In this document: in pieces, positions 1,452 to 20,289 of the stretch
Position numbering within the stretch: the stretch's first letter is position 1
Layout: the number at the start of each line of letters is the position of its first letter
Source: Bacteroidales bacterium
Lineage (GTDB): Bacteria > Bacteroidota > Bacteroidia > Bacteroidales > UBA932
NCBI GenBank assembly: GCA_017428945.1
Contig: JAFRPW010000006.1
Location: 62,001 to 126,000 of the forward strand
Direction: 5' to 3'
Length of the DNA stretch: 64,000 nucleotides
Made by a program: the position numbers and the translations under genes
Notes under the pieces: generated by a model
Database searches by the model: none
Told to the model about the DNA's origin: nothing
Seen by the model: the letters and a program-made list of their open reading frames with translations, nothing else

Positions 1452-3155
1452 CTACCATCCGGTATTTTGAGTGAGGTTGGGATTGTTGAAGGTCTCGGCC
1501 TGCGGGATGGGGTACAGGTTCATCTTGTCTGCCCAGGTGCGGGTTTCGACCGTCTTCCTGCTGTAGGTGAGGGTTGCACCGTTCTTGACTATTTCCACAC
1601 CGTCCAGCTGGCCCATCACGCTTTGTGCGATGCTCCAGCGGCGGATGTCCCAGAAGCGGTGGTCCTCGAAGGCGAACTCAACCCTCCATTCGCGGCGCAC
1701 CGCATCGCGGAATGCCGTCTGGCTGGTTGCGGTGACGTCCGGCATACCGGCGTTGGCGCGTACCTGGTTGAGTGCGTCGAGTGCGCTCAGGGTGAACGTG
1801 CCGTCCGTTGCGGTGGGACCGCCCAGATACTCGTTGAGGGCCTCCGCATAGCTCAGGAGAGCCTCTGCGTAGCGGTAAACGATCCACTGGTGCTTGTTGG
1901 TCACCGTGTTCTCAGGAGTGAAGCTTGTGCTCTCCTGGATGTAGCGGCGCAGGTAGTAACCGGTTACGGTACCCAGCTCCGTGCGGGTTGCGGAATAATC
2001 CTTGCCGCCCACGAAGGTCTCTATTGTGGAACCCTTGAAAGCCATACCGTTGGCAAGGATCGCACGCGCGAAACGGGGATCGCGGCCGTCGTAGGGCTTG
2101 GTCACGTCAAATGCGGGATCGGAGGTCTGCCAGCCGTTTGCGCCCAGGGTGATGTCGTAGCCGCCCAGGGTCTGGAAGGCATCCACCAGCTGCTGGCTGG
2201 GATAGGTGCCAGCCATAGAGGTGCGCTCGCTCTCGGTGAAGCGTACGGGGAAGTTGTACCTCTCGAAGCTCTGGCTCTCACTGCGCGCGATAGCCATAAT
2301 CACTTCCGGAGAGAGGTAGTTGTTGGCCTTCTCCGCAGCGTCCAGCTTGTAGACGTTGAGGTCGATGATCTCCTTGGCTGCAGCAGCGGCCTTCTGCCAT
2401 TTTTCCTTGTTGCCGGAAGGGTTGTGCTGGGGAGAGGCGGCGTAAAGGAGAGCCTTTGTCTTTACGGCAAGGGCGAATCCCTTGGTTACGCGGCCAATCT
2501 CATCGTCCAGCATTCCCACGTAGGTGTTGGGAAGGTAGGGAGCCGACTCGTCGCATTCCTTGACGATGAAGTCGATGACCTCGTCGAAAGGAGTCTTGGA
2601 GATGGCGTTGGCTTCCTCGGCAGTGAGCATAGTCAGAGGCATTGCGATGTCGCCGTAGCGGCGGGCAAGCTCGAAGAAGAAGTATGCGCGGAGGACCTTG
2701 GCCTCGTAGGGATACACGTTCAGGTGCTCCCACCACTTCTTGTACTTGCTCTCGTACTGGTACATAGACAGGTCGAAGGTGGCCTGGAGGACACCGTTCT
2801 CGTCCGCCTGCCAGTGAGTGAGGAACTCGTTGGCGCTGCGGATGCCGTAGTAGAGGCTCCACTTGTCGTCAACGGTCTGTATGGGAGTCCAGTTGCCGTT
2901 GGTGAAACGCTGCACGGAGGCATCGGGGTCTGCGTATTCCGCATCGTCCGAGCCGCAGTCGCGGAGGGCGCTGGACACATCGGCAATATCCTTGTTGGGC
3001 ATATAGCCGTAGATGTTGGTGAGCATCTTCTGGATATTGCTGTAGGTCTTGTACATATCATCCCGGGAGTACTGGCTGGAGGACTCGTCAAAGTCCAGGA
3101 CATTGCAGGATGCTGCCAGAATGAAAGCACTTAAAATGTAGAAAAGTTTTTTCAT
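1452..3155 (-). CDS. SusD/RagB-family glycan-binding lipoprotein (second pair of the PUL)
   Basis: This 567-residue SusD/RagB-family protein has a lipoprotein signal ending LAASC (Cys17). It has the alpha-helical TPR-like fold signature, including an ALRDCGSDDAEYAD segment near the N-terminus, RAYFFFELARRYGDIAMPL around 155-175, and the conserved C-terminal block RREWRVEFAFEDHRFWDIRRW. It ends NPNLTQNTGW, a typical SusD tail. SusD proteins sit on the outer surface and act as a lid on the SusC channel. It lies 15 nt after its SusC partner, so the two are almost certainly co-transcribed. Specificity cannot be read from the sequence, but neighbouring GH20 and GH2 genes suggest glucosamine-type oligosaccharides. 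Confidence 0.95.
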   Translation of the reverse strand: MKKLFYILSAFILAASCNVLDFDESSSQYSRDDMYKTYSNIQKMLTNIYGYMPNKDIADVSSALRDCGSDDAEYADPDASVQRFTNGNWTPIQTVDDKWSLYYGIRSANEFLTHWQADENGVLQATFDLSMYQYESKYKKWWEHLNVYPYEAKVLRAYFFFELARRYGDIAMPLTMLTAEEANAISKTPFDEVIDFIVKECDESAPYLPNTYVGMLDDEIGRVTKGFALAVKTKALLYAASPQHNPSGNKEKWQKAAAAAKEIIDLNVYKLDAAEKANNYLSPEVIMAIARSESQSFERYNFPVRFTESERTSMAGTYPSQQLVDAFQTLGGYDITLGANGWQTSDPAFDVTKPYDGRDPRFARAILANGMAFKGSTIETFVGGKDYSATRTELGTVTGYYLRRYIQESTSFTPENTVTNKHQWIVYRYAEALLSYAEALNEYLGGPTATDGTFTLSALDALNQVRANAGMPDVTATSQTAFRDAVRREWRVEFAFEDHRFWDIRRWSIAQSVMGQLDGVEIVKNGATLTYSRKTVETRTWADKMNLYPIPQAETFNNPNLTQNTGW

Positions 3156-5909: not shown

Positions 5910-5929
5910 CTTCGGGTACATTTTTTAGT

Positions 5930-7783
5930 TTACCAACCCGGATTCTGAGTCATGCCGTAGTTCTTGTTGATTTCCACGGCAGGAATGGGAGCGAAATACC
6001 ATTTGGTATCCCAGTCGGTATACCACTTGCGGTCCGGATAGGCAAGCTTCACTGCAGGAAGGCCCCTGGAAGGGTCTCCGTATGTGAAGGAGGTTGCTTC
6101 CTTCTGGGTGTTCCCGATGGAGGTGAGGCCGTGCAGCGGAGTTGTAAAGGCTGCAGTAAGACCCCAGCGCACCATGTCGAACCAACGAACTTCCTCGAAG
6201 CCGAATTCCAGTTCGCGCTCAAGGATGAGGGCGTCACGGAACTGTTCCTTGGTAAGGCCTTCCGGCAGGCCGGGCAGGCCCACGCGGGCACGCACGGCGT
6301 TCACCCAGGTGTAGGCCTTGTCGGAAGGACCGCCATCGGCCTCGTTATAGGCCTCTGCCGCATTCAGGAGCACTTCTGCGAAACGCATCATACACCAGTG
6401 GGGCGGGTTAGAACGGTCGCCGTTCTGCTGAAGGACATACTTCATCATGAGGAAACCGGGGCAGCCGTCGCCATGGCCCTTGGCGTTGTCGTAAGCGGGG
6501 CCCACGGAACCGCCCTTCCAGATGTCTCCCGGAACACAGATGTTCTCATAGAGGCGTGGGTCACGGGTCTCGGTGAAGGAGGAGTTGCCCACCTTCAAGG
6601 TGCCGAGGGGATCCGGTTTGAAGAAAGGATACTCGGGCCAGTTGGCCTTGTTCTCCCAGTCGAAGTCGGCCGGGAAGGGATCTCCGTTGGCCCAGGTGAA
6701 TTTGTTCACCCATTCAAGCGTGGCGCCGGAACCGTAGTCGTCCTGGACGTCGATGTGCTTGTCGTGGTAGCTGGTGCTGTTGGACTTGCGGATGGAAATG
6801 ATGCACTCCGAAGAGCCGCGGTCGAAGTAACCGCTGCGGTAGGCAAGGCGGTATGCGCGCGGCGTAATCTGGCCGGTGATTGCATCCGGGGTGGCCTGTA
6901 CAAGGGCATACCCGCCGTTGGAGAGCTGCTCCTTCATAAACTCGTCTGCAGCAGCCTTTGCAGCCTGCCAGCGGGCGGGATCATAATTGGTGTAGCAGGT
7001 GTACTCATCGGCCTTGGGATGCCACAGAGTGTTGGAGTTGAGGGTGGGCGAAGCGGCGTAGCACAGGATACGGAGCTTGAGGCCCAGGGCAGCTGCGCGT
7101 GTAAGGCGGCCGTCATCGGCGGCGGAAACCTTCCAGGGCAGATCCGGTGCGGCTTCGTCACAGAGTTTCACTATATAGTCGATGGTCTCAGCGAAGGTGT
7201 TGCGGCGGAATTCCATCTTTTCGTCGGTACGTACGGCATGGTCGATAATGGGGACGCCGCCAACGAAACGCACCATATTGGCATAGCAGATGGCCATAAC
7301 CATCTTGGCCTCGGCCTTCTTCTGTGCCAGTGCGGCGGGATCGGCATTGGGAATGCGGTCTGCGTTCTCCAGGAACAGCCAGGCGTAACGGATGGCCTTG
7401 TAGTCCTGCTCGGAGCCGAAGCGGTAGGTTTCACCGCCTACTCCGTGGCCGGACATATTGGCGCTGAGGCCGCCGGTGTAATAGAGGTCGTTGGGGCCGT
7501 CACCCTCGGTATGCTTACCGCTGATGAAGTGGTCAGTAATGGATTCAAGGAAGTCCGATCCCATCTTGCTGTCGTCACTTGTGACGATGCCGTAAGGGAG
7601 GTAGTAATATGCCTGTACAAGCACCTTATCAGCGTCCTTGAGGGAAGCAAACAGGGTGTCGATGGTTGCGCCGGAGGTTTCCGGAGCCTTGGACAGGCCT
7701 GCGTCGCCAAGCTTCATGCTTTCACAGGCAACCAGTCCTGCCGCCAGGGCGGCGATAGCCAAGTATTTAACTGTATTGTTCAT
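5930..7783 (-). CDS. SusD/RagB-family glycan-binding lipoprotein (first pair of the PUL)
   Basis: This 617-residue SusD homologue has a lipoprotein signal ending GLVAC (Cys20). It shows the family core, with RYAWLFLENADRIPNA and a MAICYANMVRFVGGVPIID segment. The C-terminal SusD block includes LILERELEFGFEEVRWFDMVRWG, and the tail is NYGMTQNPGW. It is longer than the second SusD because of an insert around residues 330-460 rich in Trp, Pro and Gly. It follows its SusC partner by 12 nt and precedes the second SusC by 8-20 nt. Role: surface binding and lid for SusC-mediated import. Substrate inferred only from the PUL context. Confidence 0.95.
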   Translation of the reverse strand: MNNTVKYLAIAALAAGLVACESMKLGDAGLSKAPETSGATIDTLFASLKDADKVLVQAYYYLPYGIVTSDDSKMGSDFLESITDHFISGKHTEGDGPNDLYYTGGLSANMSGHGVGGETYRFGSEQDYKAIRYAWLFLENADRIPNADPAALAQKKAEAKMVMAICYANMVRFVGGVPIIDHAVRTDEKMEFRRNTFAETIDYIVKLCDEAAPDLPWKVSAADDGRLTRAAALGLKLRILCYAASPTLNSNTLWHPKADEYTCYTNYDPARWQAAKAAADEFMKEQLSNGGYALVQATPDAITGQITPRAYRLAYRSGYFDRGSSECIISIRKSNSTSYHDKHIDVQDDYGSGATLEWVNKFTWANGDPFPADFDWENKANWPEYPFFKPDPLGTLKVGNSSFTETRDPRLYENICVPGDIWKGGSVGPAYDNAKGHGDGCPGFLMMKYVLQQNGDRSNPPHWCMMRFAEVLLNAAEAYNEADGGPSDKAYTWVNAVRARVGLPGLPEGLTKEQFRDALILERELEFGFEEVRWFDMVRWGLTAAFTTPLHGLTSIGNTQKEATSFTYGDPSRGLPAVKLAYPDRKWYTDWDTKWYFAPIPAVEINKNYGMTQNPGW

Positions 7784-7795
7784 GGTCAGCTTGGT

Positions 7796-10700
7796 TTAGA
7801 AGGTGATGTTGAGTGCAAGGTTATAGGTCTTCACCAGAGGATACTGGCCGTCGGAGTCGTCGGAACGGGCTTCAGGGTCCTGAAGTTTCATCTTGGAGAA
7901 GGTAAGGAGGTTGTAGCCTGTGAACATAAGGCCGAGGGAACGGATGCCCATCTTCTCAAGGAGCCTGCCCTTGGAGAAGGTGTAGCCGAAGCTGGCGCTC
8001 TTCAGACGCAGATAGGAAGCGTCCACGGTCCACAGGGTGGAGTCCATTGAGTTCCAAGGGTAGTTGGTCTTGGTGAAACGCGGCAGGGTACCGTCTTCGC
8101 GGCCGGGGGCCCAGTCGTTGTCGTCCGGGATCCAGCTGTTCTCAGCAAAGTAGGTAAGGAGGCCGCGGTGGCCGGAGTTGGTGAAAGGAATGCGGTAGTC
8201 CATGTTCCACACACGGCTCACGTTGGTTGCGGCAACCCAGTTGAGGTTCAGGTTGAAGCCCTTGTAACCGTATTTCCAGTTGGAGCCGAACACATATTCC
8301 GGACGGTCAGGATAACCGTCAATCATCATATCGTTACCGTCGATGACCATATCGCCGTTGAGGTCCTCGTACATACAGTCACCTGGATAGACGGTGGTAT
8401 TGGGCTGGGGAAGGTCGGCATTCAGGCGCTGTACGCCGTTCTCGTCGATATAGAAGTCGCTCTTCTGATACAGGCGCTCGTACTGGTACAGTTTGTGACG
8501 GTTTGTGGGGCCGCCGGTTTCCGCCTGGTAGGGGTACTCCGGTTCAACCTCGTCCATATCTATGATCTTGTTGCGGGCGAAGGTTACGTTGGCGCCGATA
8601 TCGTAGGTGAAGCTGCCGATGTGGTCCTTATAGCCAATCTCTATCTCATAACCGTGGTTGTCCACAACACCAAGGTTCATGTTGTTTGGCGTGAAGGCGA
8701 TGACGCCCGGCAGGGACTTCGGGGAGATCAGGATACCGGTACGGTGCTCCCTGAAGATATCTCCGGAGAAGTGCAGCTTGTAGTTGAACATATCCAGGTC
8801 AAGGCCGATGTTGGACTTGACGGCGGTTTCCCAGGTAACGCCCTCGTTGCCGGGGGTCCCCATCTCATAGCGGGGAACACCGTCGCTCTTGCCTGTGCCG
8901 AAGTAATACGCTCCGGCTTCGGTCCAGACACCCTCCATATACATGAATCGGGCGCTGCTTCCCTTGTCGGAACCAACCTTACCGATGGATCCGCGCAGTT
9001 TGAGGAAGTCGATGGCCTTGGCCCTCTTCATGAACTTTTCTTCGCTTATGACCCAACCGAGGGAGATTGACGGGAACAGACCGTAGCGGGTCTTGCCGGG
9101 AGCGAAGTTCTCGGAACCGTTGTAACCGGCGCTCACGTCAACCAGGTATTTGTCTGCATAAGCATAGGTGGCGCGCCCTACCCAGCCAACATATCCGCGG
9201 GGCAGCCAGGAATACCTGCTGGGATAGTAGTCGCGGGACTGGTTGTAAAGGAACAGGCCGCTCACGGCGTGCTTCCCGAACTTGCGGCTGTAATCCAGGC
9301 TGGCCTCGAGGTACCAGCTCTTGTCGTCAGAGGTGGACTCGCTGTAGCTGAGCGTGGGTTCACTTCCTGAAAGGACCAGGATATAGGAGCGGTCAAAGGC
9401 GGGATCTGCCAGGCTCAGGCCGGAATCGTTGGCCCAGGAGGCGTACTCCACAGTCTGGTGGTAACCGCCGCTTCCGCTGTGCTTCTTGGTGATGGACATG
9501 GTGGTGTCGTAGCTGCCTTTTACCTTGAACTTGAGGCCCTTGGTGATAAAGTCCAGCTTCTGTGTGATGGTCATGTCCATGCCCAGTGTGGTCTTGTACT
9601 TGTTCTGGTAACCAGTCCAGTAGTAGTATTCCCAACCATTCCACTTAGTCAGGGCGTCAGGCAGGGCCTGAGTGGAAACCACCGTGACGGGGAGGCCGTT
9701 CACCGTGCCAGGGCTGGCAGTAGGGTGTGACCACAGCATGGAGCGCATCCAGATGTTGTCCGCTCCGGCTATCGGCTCCTGGGTATTGCCTATCATACCG
9801 CTGATGTTGAACTTCATGTCCGTGGTTTCGGTGAGCTTGAAGTCCAGGTTGGCACGGTAGTTATAACGGTTGTAGGAGAAGTTGTTGTTGTAGGTTACGC
9901 CGGGAATCTGCTTCAGGAGACCGTCCTGGAACATATAACCCATTGAGACGAAGTATTTCACCTTGTCCGAGCCGCCGCTGATGTTCACGTTGTTCTTGGT
10001 CTGGAGGAAGGCCTTGCGGAACATTTCCTCGTTCCAGTGGGTGTTGGGGAACATCAGGGGATCGCTTCCCGTGCGGTAGGCCTCGATGGCCTCGCGGGTG
10101 AAGTACTGCTTGTAGTCGGTGATGCCGTCGTTCTGCTTGTACACGTTGTAGTAGCGTGCATAGTCATAGCTGTCGCACTGGGTGATATAGGCCATAGGGA
10201 CCTGCACACCGGTGATGGACGACGCCGTGATCTTGGGCTTGCCCACGTCACCGCGCTTGGTGGTGATGATGATGACACCGTTAGCGCCTCGCACACCGAA
10301 CACTGCCGTTGAGGCGGCGTCCTTCAGGATGGAAAGGCTCTCGATTTCATTGGGGTCTACCGTGTTCATAGGACGTTCCACACCATCCACAAGGATGAGA
10401 GGAGTGGAAGCGCTCTCACTCAGGGAGCCGACGCCTCTGATGTAGATCTTGGCGTTGTCTTCACCGGGCTGACCGGTTTCCTGGACGGTGGAGACACCGG
10501 GCATCTGGCCGGCCAGCACGTTGGTCACGTCGGCAACGGGAGCCTTGATGAGGGCTTTGTTGTCGATGGCCGTGACGGCGCCGGTAACCGTAGCCTTGGT
10601 CTGCGTGCTGTACGCAACCACAACCGTGGCTTCGATGGACTGGGTGTCATCCCTCAGAACCACCGTGAAGCTCCGCTGCTTGCCCACGGTGACCTCTTCG

Positions 10701-10957
10701 GTCACGTAACCAAGGGCGGAAACCTCCAGGACAGCAGTCTCGGAAGGGACCGTCAGGACAAAGTTGCCGTCGAAGTCCGCAGCCGCGCCGGTGGTGGTTC
10801 CCTTTACGGTAACGCCCGCACCGATGACCGGAAGTCCTTCGGAGTCTATGATCTTACCTTTTACGGTAATTCCTCTCTGCGCCAGGGCCTGAGGGCTCAG
10901 CATCAGGAGCAGACTCCCAAGAACAGCCAGTCTTAGTAAATGGACTACTTTTTTCAT
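7796..10957 (-). CDS. SusC/RagA-family TonB-dependent transporter (first pair of the PUL)
   Basis: This full-length SusC homologue has 1053 residues. It has a signal peptide ending PQALAQ, then a carboxypeptidase-regulatory-like beta-sandwich (about 29-110, with GKIIDSEGLPVIGAGVTVKG). A TonB-box-like stretch follows near 112-122, then the plug (about 125-240, with the family motif SILKDAASTAVFGVRGANGV) and the barrel, ending NLALNITF. It imports oligosaccharides across the outer membrane using TonB energy. It follows the alkaline phosphatase gene by 42 nt, and that gap carries a tandem AACTAACC just before the start codon. The SusD gene follows 12 nt later. Confidence 0.96.
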   Translation of the reverse strand: MKKVVHLLRLAVLGSLLLMLSPQALAQRGITVKGKIIDSEGLPVIGAGVTVKGTTTGAAADFDGNFVLTVPSETAVLEVSALGYVTEEVTVGKQRSFTVVLRDDTQSIEATVVVAYSTQTKATVTGAVTAIDNKALIKAPVADVTNVLAGQMPGVSTVQETGQPGEDNAKIYIRGVGSLSESASTPLILVDGVERPMNTVDPNEIESLSILKDAASTAVFGVRGANGVIIITTKRGDVGKPKITASSITGVQVPMAYITQCDSYDYARYYNVYKQNDGITDYKQYFTREAIEAYRTGSDPLMFPNTHWNEEMFRKAFLQTKNNVNISGGSDKVKYFVSMGYMFQDGLLKQIPGVTYNNNFSYNRYNYRANLDFKLTETTDMKFNISGMIGNTQEPIAGADNIWMRSMLWSHPTASPGTVNGLPVTVVSTQALPDALTKWNGWEYYYWTGYQNKYKTTLGMDMTITQKLDFITKGLKFKVKGSYDTTMSITKKHSGSGGYHQTVEYASWANDSGLSLADPAFDRSYILVLSGSEPTLSYSESTSDDKSWYLEASLDYSRKFGKHAVSGLFLYNQSRDYYPSRYSWLPRGYVGWVGRATYAYADKYLVDVSAGYNGSENFAPGKTRYGLFPSISLGWVISEEKFMKRAKAIDFLKLRGSIGKVGSDKGSSARFMYMEGVWTEAGAYYFGTGKSDGVPRYEMGTPGNEGVTWETAVKSNIGLDLDMFNYKLHFSGDIFREHRTGILISPKSLPGVIAFTPNNMNLGVVDNHGYEIEIGYKDHIGSFTYDIGANVTFARNKIIDMDEVEPEYPYQAETGGPTNRHKLYQYERLYQKSDFYIDENGVQRLNADLPQPNTTVYPGDCMYEDLNGDMVIDGNDMMIDGYPDRPEYVFGSNWKYGYKGFNLNLNWVAATNVSRVWNMDYRIPFTNSGHRGLLTYFAENSWIPDDNDWAPGREDGTLPRFTKTNYPWNSMDSTLWTVDASYLRLKSASFGYTFSKGRLLEKMGIRSLGLMFTGYNLLTFSKMKLQDPEARSDDSDGQYPLVKTYNLALNITF

Positions 10958-10999: not shown

Positions 11000-12163
11000 C
11001 TATTTCAGGAGTTTTCTTACAAGTTCACCAACTTCGGAATTCTCGTGAATGCCGGCAAAATCCTCTGCATGGGGACCGTAGGCGAAAACCGGAACCACTA
11101 TGCCGTCGTGACCCTTGGTGGAGAAGTGAACCTTCACGGTCCTCTCTTCAAGGCTGCCCTTCAGGAGGGTAAGGCCGCCGGTATTGTGGTCTGCGGTTAC
11201 AAGGACAAGGGTGTGGCCGTCCTTTTCTGCCCATTCCAGGACGGCCCCGATCACCTTATCGAAATCGAAGAGCTCTTCGCACATATAACCAACCTTATTG
11301 CGATGGCACCAGTCATCAATCTGGGAGCCCTCGACCATGAGGAAGAAGCCCTTCTTATTGTCCAGCATCTGAATTGCCTTCATGGTGCTCTCCATGAGGA
11401 TGGGACCACGGTCAAGCGCGGGTTTGAGGTCGTACTCGTCGTACAGGCCCAGGAACTTGTCCCCCTGGGCACCGGCAATGTCTTCAAGCTTGTCTACGTA
11501 TGTGTACCCCTTGGCCTTCATCTCGTCAATGAGGTTGCGGCCGTCGGAGCGCTTGTTCCAGAAATGGGTGCCGCCGCCGGAGATGAAATCAACTCCGGAG
11601 TCCACATACTGGGCGGCAAGGCCTTCCTCGTCCTTGCGGGAAGGGCCGTGGATGGCAAAATCGGCCGGAGTGGCGTCATTGATGCGGCAGGTGACGGCAA
11701 GGCCTGTCTTCATACCCTTTTTCTGCGCCAGGTGGAGCGAGGTCACAAAGGGATTCTGGTCCTTGTCTATGCCGATGTATCCGTACTTGGTCTTCTCTCC
11801 GGAAGACAGCGCGGTGCCGCCGGCGCAGGAATCCGTGATGAGACGGTCCGTGCAGTAGGTACGGGAATATCCGCACACCGGCATCTGGTCTATGTTGAGG
11901 GCGCCTCCATTGGCCACCCAGCCCACGGACCACTGGCTGAGGCCGGTTCCGTCGCCTATAAGGAAGATGATGTTCTTCACCTTCTTGCTCTTTGGCTGCT
12001 TTACGGTAACCGTCCGGTAAGGGGTCTCGACGGTATACTGGTCGTCCTTGGAGAAGGAGTAGGTGGCGTATTTTGACCTGTCACGGTCAAGGTCTTCGGG
12101 GGTCTGGGCAAAGGCCCATGCGCCAAGGAGCAGGGCTCCGGCTGCAAGCATTATTTTTCTCAT
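11000..12163 (-). CDS. Alkaline phosphatase, secreted, encoded in the PUL
   Basis: This is a PhoA-type alkaline phosphatase of 387 residues, a metal-dependent phosphomonoesterase exported to the periplasm by signal peptide MRKIMLAAGALLLGAWAFA. All key residues of the family are visible: metal ligand D71 in FLIGDGTG, nucleophile S112 in TDSCAGGTA, Arg160, the E278/D283/H287 triad in VEGSQIDDWCH, D325-H326 in TADHNTGG and H352 in KGHDG. An upstream in-frame ATG at 12172 exists. I chose 12163 because that ATG overlaps the TGA of the upstream GH2 gene as ATGA, implying translational coupling, and gives a cleaner signal peptide. Phosphatases are not standard PUL members, so removing phosphate from the imported glycan is a reasonable inference. 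Phosphate scavenging is the alternative. Confidence 0.95.
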   Translation of the reverse strand: MRKIMLAAGALLLGAWAFAQTPEDLDRDRSKYATYSFSKDDQYTVETPYRTVTVKQPKSKKVKNIIFLIGDGTGLSQWSVGWVANGGALNIDQMPVCGYSRTYCTDRLITDSCAGGTALSSGEKTKYGYIGIDKDQNPFVTSLHLAQKKGMKTGLAVTCRINDATPADFAIHGPSRKDEEGLAAQYVDSGVDFISGGGTHFWNKRSDGRNLIDEMKAKGYTYVDKLEDIAGAQGDKFLGLYDEYDLKPALDRGPILMESTMKAIQMLDNKKGFFLMVEGSQIDDWCHRNKVGYMCEELFDFDKVIGAVLEWAEKDGHTLVLVTADHNTGGLTLLKGSLEERTVKVHFSTKGHDGIVVPVFAYGPHAEDFAGIHENSEVGELVRKLLK

Positions 12164-14619
12164 AGATTCCATCCTTCAAGTGTTATGTTTGCGTCTTTTT
12201 CCGTGCAAAGCACAGTGCGGGTCTCTCCGGGAACCAGGGAGAAGAAGTTGTCCTCCCAGATTGCGCCGCCCTTCAGCTTGCCGCAGCCGCACTTGGCCTT
12301 GAGGATAAGCTGGTAGGCTACCACCGGGGAATTGTTTTTAAGCGTTACAAGGACGCCGTCCTCCGCAGGCTGAGTGGTCATCTCAACGCTTGCCTTGGGA
12401 AGGTTGGTAACGAAGGAGAGGTCTGCGTATCCGGTCATGGGGATGCCCCACCAGTCGGCCTTCTTCCATTCATATTCTCCGCCTGCAGCGGGGACGCAGT
12501 AGAAATTGTGCGCAACCACCTTGCCTTCCGCATCTTTGAGCTCCAGGGAAAGGAAGCCTTCCCCTTCCGGGAGGGTCTCCACCACAAACGGCCTTCTGGC
12601 CTTGCTGCGGAAGCGGTAGTCGTTGCAGCTCACCGTGCGGGACCTGGAGTCCAGATAGCGGACGGTTGCGCTGTAATAGGCCTCGGGCACAACGTCGTTC
12701 ACGCACCAGACTTCGCGCGTACCATAATTATATATAAGCTGTACGGGCGCACACGCGTTCTTGACGCCATAGTAGCCCGCGGTTGGCACAAGGTACCAGT
12801 CGTAAAGCTGCCAGTACATGGACGGCCAGGCGCTGTTGAGCATCCAGTTCACAATGCCCGTTGCCTGCTTGTCTATATTGCAGCGGAAGGCCTCGTACAT
12901 GGCGCGGGTGGCGTCGTAGTCCAGGGCGTGGGCCTTTTTGATATAATCGTCAAAGGAGGTGGCCTTCCCGTAGGTACCGTCCATAACGTTCACCTGGAAG
13001 TCCATGTTGTTCATGTGGGACGATGAAGCCGTGCAGTGATAGTCCCAGGTCTTGTTCAGGGGCCACTCGGGGGCTCCGCCAAGCAGGCGCTTCACGTTCT
13101 CTGCCTGGGGGATGTTGAGGCCGGGATTGGTCTCCGTGTTAAATCCGTAGGCACCTCCCCTCTCGGTGTCGATATACCAGTAATCGGGACCCACGTACTC
13201 GTACGGGCCGGCCATCTTCATGCCGGAGTGTCCTGTAACTTCGCTCCTGACTGCGCTGGCGGAGCAGACATAGGGCCTGTACTCGTACTTGTCGTATATC
13301 TTCATGTATTCCTTCTCGAGGCTGGGTAGTGGAGCACGGTCGCTGCCCGTGAGCCATGCAATCACGGAAGGATGGTTCCTGAGGCGGATAATCTGGTCCC
13401 TGAAGTACCTGGCGGCCAGGGTTTCCCAGGGCTCGCCGGAGATGCAACCGTTGCGTCTTGTCTCCGGAAGGCCGCAGTAGTCTTCCCACTCCCACTGGCA
13501 GCTGAAGCCCACTATCGCCAGGAGGCCCAGCTGGTCGCAGAGGTTGTAGATGGTGTCGTCCTTTCCCCAGATATCCTCGAAGCGGATGCTGTTGAGGCCC
13601 ATGTCCTTGACCATCAGGGCCTGCTTCAGGAGGCTTTCAGGGGTGTCCTGCATGAAGATATCGTCCGTCCAGCCGGCACTCTTGATGAGGACCTTCTTTC
13701 CGTTGAGGATGAAGCGGCGGTACTTGCCGTCAACCAGCTCGGACTGAATGTCCCTGAGGCCGAAGGTAATATCCCTGCTGTGCGATATTTTCTTTCCCAC
13801 GGCAAACACGGCGCTGAGGTGATAGAGCTCCGGAGAACCCATTTCCGCACTCCACCAGATCCGGGGATTCACAACCTTTTCCTTATGGGTAATCACCTTT
13901 GTCTCCCCTGCCGCAAGGCTCACGGGAATCTCAATATATCCGCCGCCCTCGTATGCGGCCTTGAGCGTACCCTTCACCGGCTTTACGGCACGGTTCACAA
14001 GGGTGGCCTCCATTATGAATGAGGCATCGGACAGGTCCTTTACGTTTACCTCGGGCTTCACAAACAGGTCCTGGATCTGGACGTTGGGGGTGGCTATGAG
14101 CGTAACGGCGCCAAGGATACCCATGGTCTCGTCCACGGGGCGGGGATTCCAGTCCACATAACCGTGGTTGAGGCTCTGGGCGGGGGCCTTGAAGACCTTT
14201 ACCTGGAGGGTGTTGTTGGCCTTGACTATGCCGCTCAGATCATATTCCCTGACGATGTAGGGGCCCACCGTGGTGTCCGCGGTGGCGAGGGTCTTGCCGT
14301 TGAGGACAATCTCCGCGCTGTATCCCAGGCTGTTGAAGCGGAGCACGTTACGGAGCGTGGTGTTGGCCTTGAACTTTGTGGTGTACACCCACGGCGTGTC
14401 AAAGAGGGTCTTGTCTATGCTCTTGTAGTTCTCACCTTCCAGGACGTTCTTGCCAAACACCCCGGCATTGTTGAGGGCGCCGGCCACTGTACAGGGAACG
14501 GTTACCTTTATGCTCTGCTTTGAGCCTTCCTGGTTAAGGGTCCACTGGGTGAGCTCCTGCGCACCTGCGCATGCGCTCGCGAGCATCATGATAGTTGCAG
14601 CTATAATCTTTATTTTCAT
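12160..14619 (-). CDS. GH2 exo-beta-D-glucosaminidase-like glycoside hydrolase
   Basis: This glycoside hydrolase family 2 protein has 819 residues from the start at 14619. That ATG lies 4 nt after the ROK gene stop and begins signal peptide MKIKIIAATIMMLASACAGA; an ATG at 14649 would run into the ROK gene. Domain order is the jelly-roll sugar-binding domain (about 30-185), an Ig-like domain (190-290), the TIM barrel (295-600) and C-terminal beta domains. The nucleophile is Glu496 in GGAYGFNTETNPG, a motif close to that of characterised exo-beta-D-glucosaminidases (CsxA type). The acid/base position reads GSD with Asp427, as in that subfamily, rather than the Asn-Glu of beta-galactosidases and beta-mannosidases. 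Predicted reaction: release of GlcN from the non-reducing end of chitosan-type chains. Substrate not proven. Confidence 0.88.
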   Translation of the reverse strand: MKIKIIAATIMMLASACAGAQELTQWTLNQEGSKQSIKVTVPCTVAGALNNAGVFGKNVLEGENYKSIDKTLFDTPWVYTTKFKANTTLRNVLRFNSLGYSAEIVLNGKTLATADTTVGPYIVREYDLSGIVKANNTLQVKVFKAPAQSLNHGYVDWNPRPVDETMGILGAVTLIATPNVQIQDLFVKPEVNVKDLSDASFIMEATLVNRAVKPVKGTLKAAYEGGGYIEIPVSLAAGETKVITHKEKVVNPRIWWSAEMGSPELYHLSAVFAVGKKISHSRDITFGLRDIQSELVDGKYRRFILNGKKVLIKSAGWTDDIFMQDTPESLLKQALMVKDMGLNSIRFEDIWGKDDTIYNLCDQLGLLAIVGFSCQWEWEDYCGLPETRRNGCISGEPWETLAARYFRDQIIRLRNHPSVIAWLTGSDRAPLPSLEKEYMKIYDKYEYRPYVCSASAVRSEVTGHSGMKMAGPYEYVGPDYWYIDTERGGAYGFNTETNPGLNIPQAENVKRLLGGAPEWPLNKTWDYHCTASSSHMNNMDFQVNVMDGTYGKATSFDDYIKKAHALDYDATRAMYEAFRCNIDKQATGIVNWMLNSAWPSMYWQLYDWYLVPTAGYYGVKNACAPVQLIYNYGTREVWCVNDVVPEAYYSATVRYLDSRSRTVSCNDYRFRSKARRPFVVETLPEGEGFLSLELKDAEGKVVAHNFYCVPAAGGEYEWKKADWWGIPMTGYADLSFVTNLPKASVEMTTQPAEDGVLVTLKNNSPVVAYQLILKAKCGCGKLKGGAIWEDNFFSLVPGETRTVLCTEKDANITLEGWNL

Positions 14620-14623
14620 ATCC

Positions 14624-15451
14624 TTAGTTGGTAAGTTGAGATGCGCCAAGAACGGGAATATCCCCCTGGGGAAGAACTTCTATCTTAAGGGTTTCAAGGG
14701 CTTTTACGTACGGATAGCGCATGGCCAGGGTCTTCTCCATGGAGCATTTGAAATGCCTGAACGAATTTGCCACGCCCCCGCCGAAGACAATGCGGTCTGC
14801 GTCGTAAGCGTACATTACCACGGCCAGGAATTCTCCAAGATGACGGCCGAATTCGTCAAACACCGCCAGGGCGTTCTCGTCACCGTTATCTGCCTGTTCA
14901 CAGATCTCTTTTCCGCCAATCTTACGAGCAGTGAAGAACTTCTTGGAGCAGAACTCTTCATAGTCGTGGCCGTTATAAGGCAAAGCGCCTATCTCCCCTA
15001 CGCCGCAATGAGAGCCGTCCATGAGTTTACCGTCAACGATTACACCCACGCCCAGGCCGGTGCCCAGCGTGATGCCAACGACTACCTTTTCCTTAGCGCC
15101 CAGCTTTGCGGCCGCGCCAAGAGCGAAGCAGTTGGAGTCGTTATTTACCGATACGGGAATCCCGAAGCACTTTTCCACGGCTTCCTTGATGTGGACCTCG
15201 TCCCAGGAAGGGATGTTGGCGGCCTGGTAAGCAATGCCTTTGGCGGGATCCACAAGCGTGGGGACCCCAATGCCGATGTGCGTTACCTCGGGGGTGATGA
15301 TTTCAGAAATCTTTACACAGAGATAGTCCAGCGTCTGCTGTTTATTCCATTCGTATTCGAAGGAAGGGACGGTTTTCTTCACAACAATGTCTGAGCCCTG
15401 TACAAGGCCCATATTGATAGTGGTACCGCCGATGTCGATTCCCAGGAGCAT
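14624..15451 (-). CDS. ROK-family sugar kinase
   Basis: This 275-residue cytoplasmic kinase of the ROK family most likely phosphorylates a hexose or amino sugar released by the PUL. It has the phosphate loop GIDIGGTTIN at the N-terminus, the sugar-binding and catalytic NNDSNCFALG motif (Asp near residue 106), an adenosine-binding GITLGTGLGVG and a late FGGGVANS motif. The zinc-binding CxCGxxGCxE cluster of many ROK members is not present; the equivalent segment reads SHCGVGEIG. In this context GlcNAc or GlcN kinase activity is inferred; glucokinase is the alternative. A TAnnTTTG box 33 nt upstream suggests an internal promoter. GH2 starts 4 nt downstream. Confidence 0.9.
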   Translation of the reverse strand: MLLGIDIGGTTINMGLVQGSDIVVKKTVPSFEYEWNKQQTLDYLCVKISEIITPEVTHIGIGVPTLVDPAKGIAYQAANIPSWDEVHIKEAVEKCFGIPVSVNNDSNCFALGAAAKLGAKEKVVVGITLGTGLGVGVIVDGKLMDGSHCGVGEIGALPYNGHDYEEFCSKKFFTARKIGGKEICEQADNGDENALAVFDEFGRHLGEFLAVVMYAYDADRIVFGGGVANSFRHFKCSMEKTLAMRYPYVKALETLKIEVLPQGDIPVLGASQLTN

Positions 15452-15484: not shown

Positions 15485-15492
15485 CAAAAATA
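15485..15492 (-). promoter_or_regulatory. -7 box TATTTTTG upstream of the ROK kinase
   Basis: This match to the Bacteroidota -7 element TAnnTTTG lies on the minus strand, 33 nt before the ROK start codon, in the only gap larger than 45 nt between genes inside the PUL. A TTTG lies 16 nt further upstream but the spacing is short of the usual 19 or so. It may drive the kinase and the genes after it. Confidence 0.4.
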
Positions 15493-15503: not shown

Positions 15504-15547
15504 ACTCCCAAATTACGAAATATGCGTATTTATACTCCCAATTTGCG
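15504..15547. promoter_or_regulatory. Direct repeat ACTCCCAA(A/T)TT, candidate regulator operator
   Basis: Two copies of ACTCCCAA-TT (15504-15517 and 15534-15547) are in direct orientation, 30 bp apart start to start, about three helical turns. They flank the 3' end of the LacI/AraC-type regulator and lie just upstream of the candidate -7 box at 15485-15492. AraC-family proteins usually bind direct repeats, so this is a candidate binding site. The role is inferred. Confidence 0.35.
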
Positions 15548-16699
15548 CAGGTCCTGTTTTCTGTATTCTGTGGGAGTACATCCCTTGAGCGCCCGGAAAC
15601 GGCGGGATATGCTCTTTGTATCGGGCTCGTCCATACGGGCGGCTATCTCCGAAACCGTGTCCGAAGACGACACCAGCTGCTGGGCGAAATAGTCCATCCG
15701 GAGGTTGGAAATGACTGTATAGATGCTGGATCCGGTGACGTCCTTGAAGCGCTGCTCCAGCAGCCTCCGGGACACCGGGACCTGCTTTATTACATCTGAA
15801 ACCTGAATTTTCCTTGAGCGATTCTGATAGATATAGCGCAAGGCTTCCGCCACCACAGGGTCCTTTGTGGCCATTATACCGGTTGAGCCCCTTCCTATTA
15901 TGGCTATGGGACGTATTACGATATCCTGTCCGGGATATGTAGGGTCCTCCACCATTCTTGTGGCCATTTCCGCCACCTCGTACCCGGCCTTCTCGATGTC
16001 CATGTTCACCGACGTAATTGCAGGAACGGTAAGGTTGCATGTAACCTCGTCATTGTCCACACCGATTATGGCAACGTCCAGAGGAACATTTATTCCCATC
16101 GCCTGACATGTTTCCAGCAGGATTTCCGCCTGATTGTCGTCACATGCAAAGATGCCGATAGGCTTTGGCAGGGACAGAAGCCACTGCTGCAGATCCGCCG
16201 TATCATAATTCCACATGGACGAAAGCTGCCTGTCCACAAAGACATGGATGCTGTTCACGTGGAACTGGCCCCTGAGCATGTCCTCATATCCTTTCCTGCG
16301 GCCGTCGCTCCAGCAAACGGACTCGTACCCGAAGAAGCCGAAGTTCTTGAAGCCGTGTCCGCACAGGCGGGCAGCCACCATTGATCCGGTAAGCTCGTAG
16401 TCCGCCGTGATGTTGGGGATTTCGTCAAACTTGGAGATATAGTCCTGGGCTATGGCCACTATTCCGTTTTTCCGGAAAAGGGAGACGTCGTCGCCGGGGT
16501 CGAACTGGCCTATGACCACGTTCGCCCTCCAGTTCTGAGCCCACCGGACCACGCCCTTTATGCCGATTTTCCTCTTGTAGGACGGCGGCATCTTGCACAC
16601 CACCCACGGCTGCTCCGAGCGCCTGGACCAGGCCATGATGCCGCGGAGCAGCCTGTAAGGAAACTGCTCTGTGAAATCCGATATTATAAGTAGTCTCAT
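15530..16699 (-). CDS. XylR-like regulator: LacI-type sensor domain fused to AraC HTH
   Basis: This 389-residue transcription factor has the layout of E. coli XylR. Residues about 1-270 form a periplasmic-binding-protein-like sensor (GIFACDDNQAEILLETCQ, VAIIGVDNDEVTCNL, PAITSVNMD motifs) and the last 100 or so are an AraC-type double helix-turn-helix (VSRRLLEQRFKDVTG and SEIAARMDEPDTKSISRRFRA). It probably senses a mono- or disaccharide from the PUL and controls its transcription. Its ATG overlaps the stop of the GH20 gene (TGATG), so the two are coupled. Unlike hybrid two-component or SARP-type PUL regulators it should sense the sugar in the cytoplasm, after import. The inducer is unknown. 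Confidence 0.93.
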   Translation of the reverse strand: MRLLIISDFTEQFPYRLLRGIMAWSRRSEQPWVVCKMPPSYKRKIGIKGVVRWAQNWRANVVIGQFDPGDDVSLFRKNGIVAIAQDYISKFDEIPNITADYELTGSMVAARLCGHGFKNFGFFGYESVCWSDGRRKGYEDMLRGQFHVNSIHVFVDRQLSSMWNYDTADLQQWLLSLPKPIGIFACDDNQAEILLETCQAMGINVPLDVAIIGVDNDEVTCNLTVPAITSVNMDIEKAGYEVAEMATRMVEDPTYPGQDIVIRPIAIIGRGSTGIMATKDPVVAEALRYIYQNRSRKIQVSDVIKQVPVSRRLLEQRFKDVTGSSIYTVISNLRMDYFAQQLVSSSDTVSEIAARMDEPDTKSISRRFRALKGCTPTEYRKQDLRKLGV

Positions 16700-18756
16700 C
16701 AGTTAACGTGATAAGAAATGCCAATCTTCTGATAATAAGGAAGTTCCTTGTCGTTTATAATGCTGTAGAACTTGTTGAAGTCGTCCACGAAGGCGGGATC
16801 GTCGGAGACTGTGGTGCCTTCCCATACGGGAGAGGCGTTCCAGCCGCGCTCGAAAAGGCCCAGGGCCTTCGGGAAGAGATAGTAGGTTACATGGTCGAAG
16901 CTGCGGATGGTCTCGCTCCAGAGCTGTCCCTGTACGCCTATGATATTCTCCTTTGCCACCAGAGGAGTCTTTCCGTCCGGGGCATCTGCAATCTTCTTTA
17001 TCTTGCCGTGGTCGTCCCAGCGGACGCTGCGGTACATGCTGTAAGGCAGCAGGGAGAATGTCCTGCGCTCGTCTACGAATCCGCCCCAGTTGTGTCCCCT
17101 CTCCAGCTTGGAGTCGTTGTACGCAAAGTCCAGGTAGGCATTGGGGGCCGATGAGATGACCACCGGGATGCCCTGGTTTGCAAACTGGTAGGGAAGTTCC
17201 TCCCTGCCGTGGGATACCGTCCATACGTTGGTAAAGCCAAGGCCGGAGGCCAGTTGGGCTGCGTTTTCCGGCTGCAGGTTCTGCACCAGCTCCTGCCATC
17301 CGGCCACCTTGACGCCCTTTGCCGCTGCAATGTCCAGCACCCGGCCCACATAGTAGTCCTTGAGCCTGTCAACGCTTGTCCAGCCGTTCTCCGCCATAAG
17401 CTTCTGACATGCGGGAGATCCAATCCATGCTCCTTCAGGAACCTCGTCACCGCCCACATGGATAACCTCCAGCGGCACACCGGCCTCTTCATAAAGGGCG
17501 ATGAGCCCGTCAAACACGGTCTCGATGAACTTGTAGGTGGACTCCAGCGCCACGTTTATGGCGTTGTCCGTATAGTCCTGTACGGAAACGTACTTGGAAG
17601 TGTCTTCCGGCTCGGAAAGCAGGCAGGAGGTGTCTCCGGTGCGCTCCGCCCTCTTTTCCATGGCCTTGATGGCGGCCCTGGAATGACCGGGGGTGTCGAA
17701 CTCGGGAATAACCCTTATATGGTGCTCCGCGGCATATTTCAGGATTTCCACAAAGTCCTTGTGGGAATAGTAGCCGCTGGCGGTTCCGGCAAGGTCGTTG
17801 CGGTCCAGGGATGCGCTGTAGGTGGGCTGCAGGGCATCGGGCTCGGAAATGGAGCCGTCTTCATTCAGTACCGGAAGGCCGCGGAAGGCGCCGTAGGAGG
17901 TGAGCTCCGGGAGGGCGTCTATCTCCACTCTCCAGCCCTCGTCGTCACCCATGTGAAGGTGAAGGACGTTTGCCTTGTAGCGGGACATGAGGTCGATGAG
18001 CCTGAGAAGGCCCTCCTTCTTTGTGAAATTGCGGCTTACATCCAGCATTATTCCGCGGTACGGGAGGTCCGGCCAGTCCTCGATGACCATGCTGGCAACC
18101 TTGGCACCTGCGGCGCTTTCGCGGATCTTGCCAAGGGTTGTGCCTGCCCAGTACTCTGCGTCCGCATCGGCGGCCTCAAGGAGAGCCTTATCGTCCATAA
18201 GGGTAATCCTGTACCAGCCGGGGCACTTGTCCCGGACGGTGGCAACGGACGTCCACTGCGCAGGAACTGAGGTTTCACCGTCCCCTTTCTCCACGCTCTT
18301 GAGGCGGGGAATCATGTCCTCGACACCTGTGTTCACGTGGCTCCATTCAAACGAGTGCTTTGGCTCGGCCGGAAGGTAATCGTACTTTACTTCCAGCTTC
18401 ACGGGACGCTTGCCGGGCTTCACAAGGTAGAAGGCTTCAGGCGCACGGCACTGGTTCACAAGGGTGCGGGCGGTGTAATTCAAGTGAAGGGTTTCCCCCT
18501 TGGTGTCTGCCTCGGGAACAATCCTGTAAAGAGTACCGCTTATGTGCTCAATCTTGCCCTCAGATCCCTCCAGCATGGTTGTGGGGGTCCTGAACTGGCT
18601 GAACCAGATGTACCAGCCCGTCCCTGCGGGAGGGTTCTGGATTTCCATGGTGAAGCTGGAATGCCTCTTGTCTACGGACTCCCCTTCTTTCCAGGAGACG
18701 GAGGTCTTGCCACAAGATACAAGCGCAAGCGCGATAAGTAGGATAAACTGCTTCAT
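16699..18756 (-). CDS. GH20 beta-N-acetylhexosaminidase, chitobiase-like lipoprotein
   Basis: This 685-residue glycoside hydrolase family 20 enzyme has a lipoprotein signal ending ALVSC (Cys15). Residues about 30-125 resemble the carbohydrate-binding CHB_HEX domain of chitobiases (TGWYIWFSQFRTP), followed by the small alpha/beta GH20b domain and the TIM barrel from about 230. The catalytic pair is Asp437-Glu438 in HVGGDEVPEGAW. Other barrel landmarks are GIMLDVSRNF and IPEFDTPGHSRAA. Predicted reaction: release of terminal GlcNAc from chitobiose and related oligosaccharides. The chitobiase-type N-domain fits the exo-glucosaminidase four genes on. Its stop overlaps the regulator start by one base. 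A 12-nt gap separates it from the upstream PD40/SPOR gene. Confidence 0.94.
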   Translation of the reverse strand: MKQFILLIALALVSCGKTSVSWKEGESVDKRHSSFTMEIQNPPAGTGWYIWFSQFRTPTTMLEGSEGKIEHISGTLYRIVPEADTKGETLHLNYTARTLVNQCRAPEAFYLVKPGKRPVKLEVKYDYLPAEPKHSFEWSHVNTGVEDMIPRLKSVEKGDGETSVPAQWTSVATVRDKCPGWYRITLMDDKALLEAADADAEYWAGTTLGKIRESAAGAKVASMVIEDWPDLPYRGIMLDVSRNFTKKEGLLRLIDLMSRYKANVLHLHMGDDEGWRVEIDALPELTSYGAFRGLPVLNEDGSISEPDALQPTYSASLDRNDLAGTASGYYSHKDFVEILKYAAEHHIRVIPEFDTPGHSRAAIKAMEKRAERTGDTSCLLSEPEDTSKYVSVQDYTDNAINVALESTYKFIETVFDGLIALYEEAGVPLEVIHVGGDEVPEGAWIGSPACQKLMAENGWTSVDRLKDYYVGRVLDIAAAKGVKVAGWQELVQNLQPENAAQLASGLGFTNVWTVSHGREELPYQFANQGIPVVISSAPNAYLDFAYNDSKLERGHNWGGFVDERRTFSLLPYSMYRSVRWDDHGKIKKIADAPDGKTPLVAKENIIGVQGQLWSETIRSFDHVTYYLFPKALGLFERGWNASPVWEGTTVSDDPAFVDDFNKFYSIINDKELPYYQKIGISYHVN

Positions 18757-18768
18757 GGTTATTGGGTT

Positions 18769-20289
18769 TTATTGTTTATTTTCTTCCTGCCTTGCCTGCT
18801 GGACGGGAATCTGCCGCCCGTCCTTCCAGGCCACTACGGTTGCCTCCGGGAATCCCTGCTTCCGGACCAGGTTAAGCTCCATCACGGCATCGTCATACTT
18901 CCGGAACATGCCCACGGTATACACGCGCTGGAGTTTGGCCGTTATCCTGTCGTACACGGGCCACAGTCCGCCGAAGTCCTCTATGCTCAGACGTTTGAGG
19001 GTGCTCGCGAACTGAATCTGGTACACCAGGCCCTCGGGCAGGGTCATGTCCTGCGCCATTCGGCCTATCTTGCCTATGTTTATGGTACCGCTTCGGCGGG
19101 CCCTGGCCATCTTTATCCTTATCCTGGGCCCCATGAGGTTCTTGCTGAAGGTGTAGCTTCCGCCTGCGCCCACGACCTCCTTGTCCTGGCTCCCGGAAGC
19201 CGACGCCATGCCCTCCTTCAGGAAGGCATCGCTCAGAAGCTGCTTTTCCAGCTGGACGTCCTGCAGCTGGCGCTGGAGCTCCTCAAGGCGCTGCCTGGAC
19301 TCATCGTTCTGGTGCTTCGCGACGGAGTCTCTCAGGGCGCGCTCCTCGTTGGACTTCTGCATGTAGAGGCGTGAGTTGGCCGATTCTTCAAAGCCCGCGG
19401 AGAAGGAATCGTGGTCCAGGCGGCCCAGCTCCTGGGCTGGGCGAAGGGAGGCTATCCGGAGTATCTCCTCGTGGCTCGAGACCACCTTGCGTTCACGGGA
19501 ACCGGCATAATCCACCACATACACATAGACACTGTCCTTTGAGCAGTCCCGGTTGGAGGCGAATATTGTGTATTTGCCGTCCTCGGTGTCCATAAGGAGG
19601 AAATCGTCCGCCGGAGAATTGAAGGGGAAACCCATGTTCACGGGGTCCTGCCAGGTTTTTGTGACGGGGTCCCAGGTGCTGGAATAAAGGTCGTAACCGC
19701 CCATGCCGTAGAGCTCGTCGGAGGCGAAGTAAAGGGTTTTCCCATCGGGAGAAAGCATGGGGAAAATCTCGTTTCCCATGGTTGTAAGTGATTCTCCAAG
19801 AAGGCGCGGGGCCGTCCAGAGGGTGTCTGTCATGTGTGTGATGAAGAGGCTTCTGGTTCCGGCAAAATCTGCCGCGCTGAAGATAATGCTCTTATCTCCC
19901 CTGGGATAGTATGTGGGATATCCTTCCAGAGAATCCAGGGGGTTGGGACTGGCATGCCAGCTCTGGGATTTAAGCGGATAGTACTGGAAGAAATCCCTGC
20001 GGGAGAACCTCTGGCGCTCCACCACGTTGGGATCGGCACAGAAATCCGCCATGTTGCTGGCGTTCATGGCCTGCTGGGTGCGCTTCATAAGGAGGGTCAG
20101 GGTGCTCTCGTCCTCCGCAAACTCCGAGGCCTGGGAGTACACGTCCTGCGCTTCCTCGAAATAGTACGCCCGGAGCAGGCTGTCAGCCTGGTCCACAAGA
20201 TGCCGTACCCTCGGGGGCATGTCCTGCCCCCGCAGGGAGAATCCCGCGGCAACGAGCGAAAGCAGTATGCAAGCCAGACCTCTGCGCAT
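18769..20289 (-). CDS. Envelope protein with TPR, PD40 beta-propeller and C-terminal SPOR-like domain
   Basis: This 506-residue exported protein has a signal peptide of about 20 residues. A short TPR-like helical part (about 28-75) is followed by WD40-like PD40 propeller repeats (about 120-290, with PMLSPDGKTLYFASDELYGMGGYDLY), a Gln/Glu-rich coiled coil (about 305-365), and a C-terminal segment (about 420-500, VYQIQFASTLKRLS and VYTVGMFRKYDDAVMELNLV) that looks like a SPOR peptidoglycan-binding domain. PD40 plus TPR resembles PorE-type envelope proteins. I cannot name a function. It lies 12 nt upstream of the GH20 gene and has its own -7 box, so the PUL may be read through from here; alternatively it is an unrelated housekeeping gene. 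Confidence 0.75.
   Translation of the reverse strand: MRRGLACILLSLVAAGFSLRGQDMPPRVRHLVDQADSLLRAYYFEEAQDVYSQASEFAEDESTLTLLMKRTQQAMNASNMADFCADPNVVERQRFSRRDFFQYYPLKSQSWHASPNPLDSLEGYPTYYPRGDKSIIFSAADFAGTRSLFITHMTDTLWTAPRLLGESLTTMGNEIFPMLSPDGKTLYFASDELYGMGGYDLYSSTWDPVTKTWQDPVNMGFPFNSPADDFLLMDTEDGKYTIFASNRDCSKDSVYVYVVDYAGSRERKVVSSHEEILRIASLRPAQELGRLDHDSFSAGFEESANSRLYMQKSNEERALRDSVAKHQNDESRQRLEELQRQLQDVQLEKQLLSDAFLKEGMASASGSQDKEVVGAGGSYTFSKNLMGPRIRIKMARARRSGTINIGKIGRMAQDMTLPEGLVYQIQFASTLKRLSIEDFGGLWPVYDRITAKLQRVYTVGMFRKYDDAVMELNLVRKQGFPEATVVAWKDGRQIPVQQARQEENKQ

Follow-up and report, generated by a model that had tools for sequence, protein, structure and literature searches.

Why should an alkaline phosphatase be built into a locus with enzymes for aminosugar polymers? 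The question is raised by a stretch of DNA of 64,000 nucleotides (the window) from a Bacteroidales bacterium, corresponding to G000:C1:62001-126000 of its own genome (G000; 2.6 Mb in 47 contigs). Here the gene for a PhoA-type alkaline phosphatase (AP; 387 amino acids, 11000-12163, minus strand) directly follows that for a predicted exo-beta-D-glucosaminidase of glycoside hydrolase (GH) family 2, subfamily 16 (GH2_16; 819 amino acids, 12160-14619, minus strand). A first-pass annotation of the sequence had noted that the two genes overlap, and they do so in a common ATGA (12160-12163, minus strand), in which the AP start codon (12163-12161) overlaps the GH2 stop codon (12162-12160); an alternative in-frame ATG lies nine bases earlier, at 12172. 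It is very likely that GH2 and the phosphatase are functionally coupled, and we put at roughly 0.6 the probability that the GH2-AP pair is the core of a polysaccharide utilization locus (PUL) for aminosugars whose substrate carries phosphate.

Relatives of the AP were collected by a profile search of genome contigs, using as query an alignment of four already-paired APs, and the best 80 of 110 were kept; this set is the paired clade by design, and the presence of GH2 played no role in the search. Contigs L131, L137 and L141 agree in length and position with those of G195, G084 and G170 and are duplicates of them. L157 and L159 come from a single metagenome-assembled genome (MAG) and, as their ends in AP do not overlap, are probably parts of the same gene. 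For 59 of the 80 loci the record names a ruminant or a horse as host, or a MAG series from the rumen. GH2 stands directly upstream of AP on the same strand in 76 of the 80, far more often than chance would give, and the GH2 side is cut by the contig edge at L094 and at L157, the latter from the same MAG as the fused locus L159. Where the two genes are separate (56 loci) they range from an overlap of 25 bases, counted from the first ATG, to 18 bp apart: ten have an ATG in the ATGA position, nine overlap by one base, one overlaps otherwise and 36 are 0-18 bp apart. The remaining 20 of the 76 pairs are single reading frames that run from GH2 into AP: the stop of the former and the signal peptide of the latter are missing, and a signal-like stretch is retained at the N terminus. 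No relative was found among viral contigs, and a literature search, mostly at the level of listings, found no GH2-phosphatase pair or fusion in print.

A frame-shift artefact is an unlikely source of the fusions, as the stop of GH2 and the signal peptide of AP are absent alike from each of the 20 loci, which lie on 20 different contigs. The 17 fusions with both ends present keep the catalytic residues of both enzymes that are named below, except at the site of PhoA Arg166 (R176); this is replaced by Val in six fused proteins, in five of which Arg comes directly after. On the AP tree the fused or separate state requires five changes, and at least three of these changes are forced by well-supported (starred) branches when counted by a quick method; fusion or splitting has therefore, as read from the sequences, happened repeatedly, gain and loss being indistinguishable. 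A structure predicted for the fusion L152 from an alignment of 17 sequences (mean pLDDT 70, pTM 0.54) has a low-confidence stretch at 822-842 between the two parts and matches the exo-beta-D-glucosaminidase CsxA with a TM-score of 0.79 by target length; all of the 50 top-listed Foldseek matches are GH2 enzymes. Six fusions (L126, L129, L133, L144, L147 and L151) have what appear by eye to be lipoprotein-type signal peptides, with a Cys near residues 14-18, and may be membrane-anchored.

The place of AP behind GH2 can be taken by a second, non-homologous phosphatase. In g16, another genus of the family (L068-L072; five loci in four genomes), the order is regulator-ROK-GH2-HAP-SusC, in which a MINPP-like histidine acid phosphatase (HAP) occupies the AP slot; in four of the five a HAP ATG shares an ATGA with the stop codon of GH2, with another ATG at +8, and in the fifth the ATG lies 10 bp after the stop. 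A fifth genome of the genus, G170, has AP in the slot, and both forms therefore occur within one genus. The RHGxR motif is present in all four HAPs checked, and both of the two that were searched have PDB 7r5y and MINPP structures of Bacteroides origin, 4fdt among them, as their closest matches. Among 199 genomes of the family there are 11 GH2_16 genes at 45% identity or more, of which four are followed by AP, five by HAP and two by neither. Searches at the order and phylum levels gave 38 GH2_16 loci of other families, none of them with AP or HAP (E 1e-5) in flanks of at most 1.5 kb, some shorter. With 76 of the 80 loci paired, 20 of the pairs fused and the slot open to an unrelated enzyme, the suggestion of joint production and use is supported well beyond the one genome from which it was drawn, and the outcome that the first-pass annotation had named as refuting it, a pair not conserved in related genomes, is not what the survey shows. 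A GH9 gene follows SusC/SusD in one of the GH2-HAP loci (L068:17181-19649).

The AP (Pfam PF00245 Alk_phosphatase, 9e-71) is closest among solved structures to a 375-residue alkaline phosphatase (PDB 2w5v, 1.9e-64). Its catalytic and metal residues had been called intact, and the equivalents of D51, S102, D153, T155, R166, E322, D327, H331, D369, H370 and H412, numbered as in Escherichia coli PhoA, are indeed all present. Within an alignment of 81 rows, D71, S112, D163 and T165 are kept in 80, E278, D283 and H287 in 79, D325 and H326 in 78 and H352 in 77, the remainder being gaps. APs in the broad sense (E 1e-20) are found in 186 of the 199 family genomes; those of the paired type (60% identity or more) occur in four, each time beside GH2, and form a separate clade in the AP tree (support 97, starred). 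At D284, the site of E. coli PhoA Lys328, all 79 paired-clade rows with a letter there have Asp, and 27 AP paralogues are variable (D 12, K 7, H 3, G 3, W 1, Y 1), a difference that could bear on substrate choice. Paralogues of 47-49% identity lie near SusC genes in L077-L079, a PF13350 phosphatase adjoining that of L077 (L077:7916-9319), and the AP paralogue of the genome studied here (L075) has a HAP about 4 kb away. From signal-peptide-like N termini read by eye, both AP and GH2 are predicted to be exported.

The closest solved relative of the GH2 enzyme is CsxA (PDB 2vzs, 2e-103, over residues 46-811), and it contains the Ig_GlcNase domain (PF18368). Subfamily GH2_16 is marked by SD in place of NE and, at a site near C2 that is His in most groups and Trp in mannosidases, by a Glu (PMC12243196); the roles of CsxA Glu394, which binds the amine, and of Asp469 are described in PMC6566704. 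E348 of the GH2 aligns with Glu394. Of 77 GH2 rows, 76 retain E348, S426, D427 and E496, and the other is truncated there. From this signature it is therefore expected that the enzyme should need a beta-linked glucosamine (GlcN) with a free amine at the non-reducing end. Identity as a mannosidase or endo-beta-mannosidase is ruled out by the SD motif and Glu348. The same genome has a second GH2_16 (45% identity; G000:C22:28822-31152, L074), which lies near a hybrid two-component regulator, a ROK gene and SusCD.

Pairing is accompanied by a shared regulatory element. In divergent loci, where the ROK kinase gene and that for GH20 or the regulator point away from each other, the region between them holds a 30-bp block with two direct copies of one sequence, ACGCAAAT...ACGCAAAT, at a spacing of 21 bp. 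An exact copy of the 8-mer ACGCAAAT, or of its complement, is present in 28 of 31 such regions (three of the 31 being contigs already counted), and the highest count of any 8-mer in 20 shuffles was 7. A matrix built from the 28 regions scores 26.8 at window positions 15519-15548 (minus strand), where the predicted operator has the repeat GCGCAAAT / ACGCATAT with 21-bp spacing; the next-best site in the window scores 11.8. In its own genome this operator is the only match to the pattern with no mismatch, two others having two mismatches. Its first half coincides with the 3' end of the regulator's coding sequence, and conservation of the block in colinear loci is therefore partly coding, a problem from which the divergent loci are free. 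Among the 52 loci outside the matrix, 32 have a site of at least 20 that is directly followed by the ROK or the GH2 gene, eight have weaker sites in place (7.5-19.2), six are cut by contig ends and six (L093, L098, L104, L106, L147 and L151) have no operator in place. A promoter -7-like element, TAnnTTTG, lies 55-57 bp from the best operator site in 75 of the 92 loci scanned, and in the window (TATTTTTG, 15485-15492, minus strand) it is 56 bp from the operator start. All five HAP-type loci have operator scores of 37-44 and a TAnnTTTG spacing of 56. Scores are 3.5 or less at the AP-paralogue loci and at the second GH2 locus of the same genome, and the G040 locus has a weak site (5.4) in place.

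Because the operator precedes kinase, GH2 and AP, these three are placed by the sequence under common control, together in some loci with a chitinase and SusC; a second operator copy precedes GH18 or SusC in eight loci, two of which are repeated by L065 and L066. The operator block would be bound by the local regulator, which combines a LacI-type sugar-binding domain (PF13377, 1.5e-30) with an AraC-type helix-turn-helix (PF12833, 4e-15) and is encoded at 15530-16699 (minus strand).

The remainder of the locus fits a PUL for aminosugars. On the minus strand of the window the order is GH20, regulator, ROK kinase, GH2, AP, two SusC/SusD pairs and a BACON protein, so that two SusC/SusD pairs, GH2, GH20, ROK and the regulator all lie within the window, with GH18 outside it. 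The GH20 beta-N-acetylhexosaminidase (16699-18756; PF00728, 5e-87) is chitobiase-like (PDB 9joq, 2.8e-95; 1qba, 2.3e-70) and by eye has a lipoprotein-type N terminus; the ROK-family sugar kinase is at 14624-15451 (PF00480, 1.4e-37). Downstream of AP are a SusC-like TonB-dependent transporter (7796-10957; TIGR04056, 1e-276), a SusD-like lipoprotein (5930-7783; PF07980, 3e-40), a second SusC-like transporter of 916 amino acids (3171-5921; TIGR04056, 2e-156), a second SusD-like lipoprotein (1452-3155; PF07980, 3e-50) and a BACON-domain protein that runs past the window edge (1-1443; PF13004, 1e-31), all on the minus strand. In 60 of the 80 AP loci the first recognized gene upstream of GH2 is ROK; ROK was detected in 61, the regulator in 67 and a HAP elsewhere in the locus in 45 (33 of the 48 with at least 20.5 kb of sequence), and these counts, like those of GH20 and Sus genes, are lower bounds from tblastn (E 1e-10) with few reference proteins and flanks of at most 10 kb. 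Directly upstream of GH20, at 18769-20289, is a gene for an exported-looking protein of 506 amino acids, relatives of which lie upstream of the locus in five of the 80 (L080, L082, L084, L102 and L142).

Catalytic domains of GH18 are present in 41 of the 80 AP loci, and in 27 of the 48 with at least 20.5 kb. Those of one sister locus and of the genome studied here are both closest to a chitinase (PDB 5gzu) and have an intact DxxDxDxE motif. Beyond the window (L064, L206) are more BACON proteins, a GH18 gene (C1:53991-56189) and two HAP genes (C1:47555-48835 and C1:42537-43811). The second of these HAPs begins 8 bp after an open frame (C1:39850-42528; the two together are L206:11850-15811) in which GH18 is fused to a PF13350 phosphatase (Y_phosphatase3), with the motifs DGIDLDWE and HCAAGRDR and an intact HCX5R; among the 199 family genomes the only other match over both domains is in G084 (62%). 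GH18 and the further phosphatases lie between G000:C1:39850 and 62000, and some of them may belong to the PUL. Further out, near the end of the region that is rich in phosphatases, is a pair of neighbouring Exo_endo_phos (PF03372) genes whose products begin like lipoproteins (L206:7455-9441; G000:C1:35455-37441).

Taking together the pairing, the fusions, the alternative phosphatase in the slot, the glucosaminidase signature, the chitinase-type GH18 and the common operator, all read from the DNA, we propose the following scheme. GH18 chitinase and the SusCD pairs would produce and import oligomers of N-acetylglucosamine (GlcNAc) and GlcN, from which, presumably in the periplasm, GH20 would take off GlcNAc and GH2_16 non-acetylated GlcN. 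The coupled or fused phosphatase would strip phosphate that blocks exo-cleavage or traps the sugars as phospho-sugars that cannot be imported, and the ROK kinase would re-phosphorylate the sugar inside the cell. The material is most likely partly deacetylated chitin or chitosan of fungal (or protist) walls, with phosphate either bound covalently or held as polyphosphate or inositol phosphate on the cationic GlcN chain. Zygomycete walls contain 8-23% phosphate, as cited in PMC5037708; chitosan was not extracted from such material until phosphate was released, which has been read as a sign of a chitosan-phosphate complex (PMC2996746), and phosphate has been suggested to protect chitosan in these walls (PMC2996746, PMC5037708). 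Phosphate-laden chitin or chitosan is the best-fitting substrate, with phosphorus scavenging as the main rival.

Several points weigh against this reading. Two of the 80 loci (L104 and L109) keep AP with no detectable GH2, and neither AP nor HAP was detected beside the G040 GH2_16 gene or the second copy of the genome studied here, which also has no operator detected beside it; GH2 itself therefore does not need a phosphatase. GH18 was not detected in 39 of the 80 loci, within flanks of at most 10 kb, some of them truncated where the contig stops. HAPs of the MINPP type use inositol phosphates as substrates, and this would suit simple scavenging of phosphorus as well. The coupling of glucosaminidase and phosphatase is deduced from sequence. 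A literature search at listing level found no phosphorylated or phosphate-bound chitin or chitosan for rumen fungi or protists, and the data on phosphate-rich chitosan walls, in the sources cited above, come from Mucoromycota.

It is possible, and we raise it tentatively, that the locus is a hybrid of a PUL and a phosphate-acquiring system such as the PUS loci of Flavobacterium, acting on the phosphate-armoured chitosan of fungal-type walls, its cationic GlcN chain held in an ionic lock by polyphosphate or inositol phosphate, and that carbon, nitrogen and phosphorus are taken from this one material in one coupled step. Three unrelated phosphatase folds (PhoA, HAP and the PF13350 Cys phosphatase) would then be yoked by overlap or fusion to chitin or chitosan hydrolases.

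If phosphorus scavenging were merely added on, the phosphatases would free phosphate from debris of any fungal, plant or microbial origin (nucleotides, inositol phosphates or phospholipid head groups) and the glycosidases would take carbon and nitrogen, from different molecules at the same time. SusCD loci with PhoA or phosphodiesterases are induced by low phosphate in Flavobacterium (PMC8115612), and several phosphatase types are clustered in the present genome (HAPs, PF13350 and Exo_endo_phos), the HAPs resembling MINPP. However, the fusions and the strict contact between GH2 and phosphatase (76/80) exceed what co-regulation needs, and the PUSI and PUSII loci of Flavobacterium are described as unlike PULs with carbohydrate-active enzymes (CAZymes) (PMC8115612). 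The operon moreover includes a regulator of sugar type and a separate operator, which is unlike the E. coli Pho box; a scan for E. coli-type Pho boxes gave one weak match, at 37795, outside the operon, a weak test in that the consensus is that of E. coli and the Bacteroidota box may differ. We regard this explanation as unlikely.

More improbable still is the recycling of a bacterial envelope phosphoglycan (lipid A/lipopolysaccharide core or teichoic acid), in which the phosphatase would uncover GlcN for GH2. The chemistry of lipid A, a phosphorylated disaccharide of beta-linked GlcN, fits; a D-Ala-D-Ala carboxypeptidase about 3 kb beyond the locus in the relative L066 is a weak hint in the same direction. 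Enzymes of the GH2_16 type need free-amine GlcN (PMC6566704), which is also in its favour. The first-pass annotation had preferred envelope sugars to chitin, a preference that finds no support because chitinase-type GH18 is present in 41 of the 80 loci and near the PUL itself, the two checked being closest to chitinases; GH20 is chitobiase-like, and Pfam named no deacylase or teichoicase among the genes of the window locus that were submitted. That AP is a generic housekeeping enzyme, present in the operon by chance, has next to nothing to commend it beyond the 186 of 199 family genomes with superfamily APs, and such hitchhiking is contradicted by the survey (76/80 paired, and all four of the 199 genomes with the paired type at 60% identity or more), by the separate clade, by repeated fusion, by HAP in the equivalent slot and by the 0/38 loci outside the family with either phosphatase in flanks of at most 1.5 kb.

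We return, then, to the GH2-AP pair as the core of an aminosugar PUL with a phosphate-carrying substrate. PULs pair glycosidases with sulfatases and with acetyl- or feruloyl-esterases; a phosphatase that is a fixed partner of an exo-glycosidase, forming one chain with it in 20 of the 76 pairs and exchangeable for one of another fold, suggests that an aminoglycan carrying phosphate is eaten in the rumen. If true, this would link chitin or chitosan turnover to phosphorus release, and the natural fusions (about 1190-1215 amino acids) are ready-made single-chain enzymes for testing the coupling.

Among known systems, PULs bearing sulfatases offer a parallel, in that an esterase of the alkaline-phosphatase superfamily removes an acidic substituent and so opens the way for exo-glycosidases. 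In the present system, in contrast, this part is played by a phosphatase of the PhoA or the histidine type, and 20 of the 76 pairs have it on one polypeptide with the exo-glycosidase. CsxA of Amycolatopsis orientalis, also of GH2 subfamily 16, resembles the GH2 described here in near full-length homology (2e-103), SD acid/base motif and amine-binding Glu, whereas the 38 GH2_16 loci outside the family, CsxA's own neighbours not being among them, have no AP or HAP in flanks of at most 1.5 kb. The chitin loci of Flavobacterium johnsoniae (PMC5127042) and Chitinophaga pinensis (PMC10449523) are likewise PULs for chitin-type glycans, but the opening of their abstracts does not mention a phosphatase. 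Closest in gene content are the PusCD loci of Flavobacterium, in which SusCD-like transporters lie beside PhoA-type and other phosphatases (PMC8115612). A PhoA-type enzyme beside SusCD is thus already known, which qualifies the first-pass remark that such an enzyme is unusual in a PUL; these PUS loci are nonetheless set apart from CAZyme PULs by their authors, and are induced by phosphate depletion (PMC8115612). The description of a PUS as SusCD and phosphatases without CAZymes does not extend to the present locus, with GH2 and GH20 in the window and GH18 nearby, together with a sugar kinase and a sugar-type regulator, part of the whole under one operator: it is a CAZyme PUL with built-in phosphatases.

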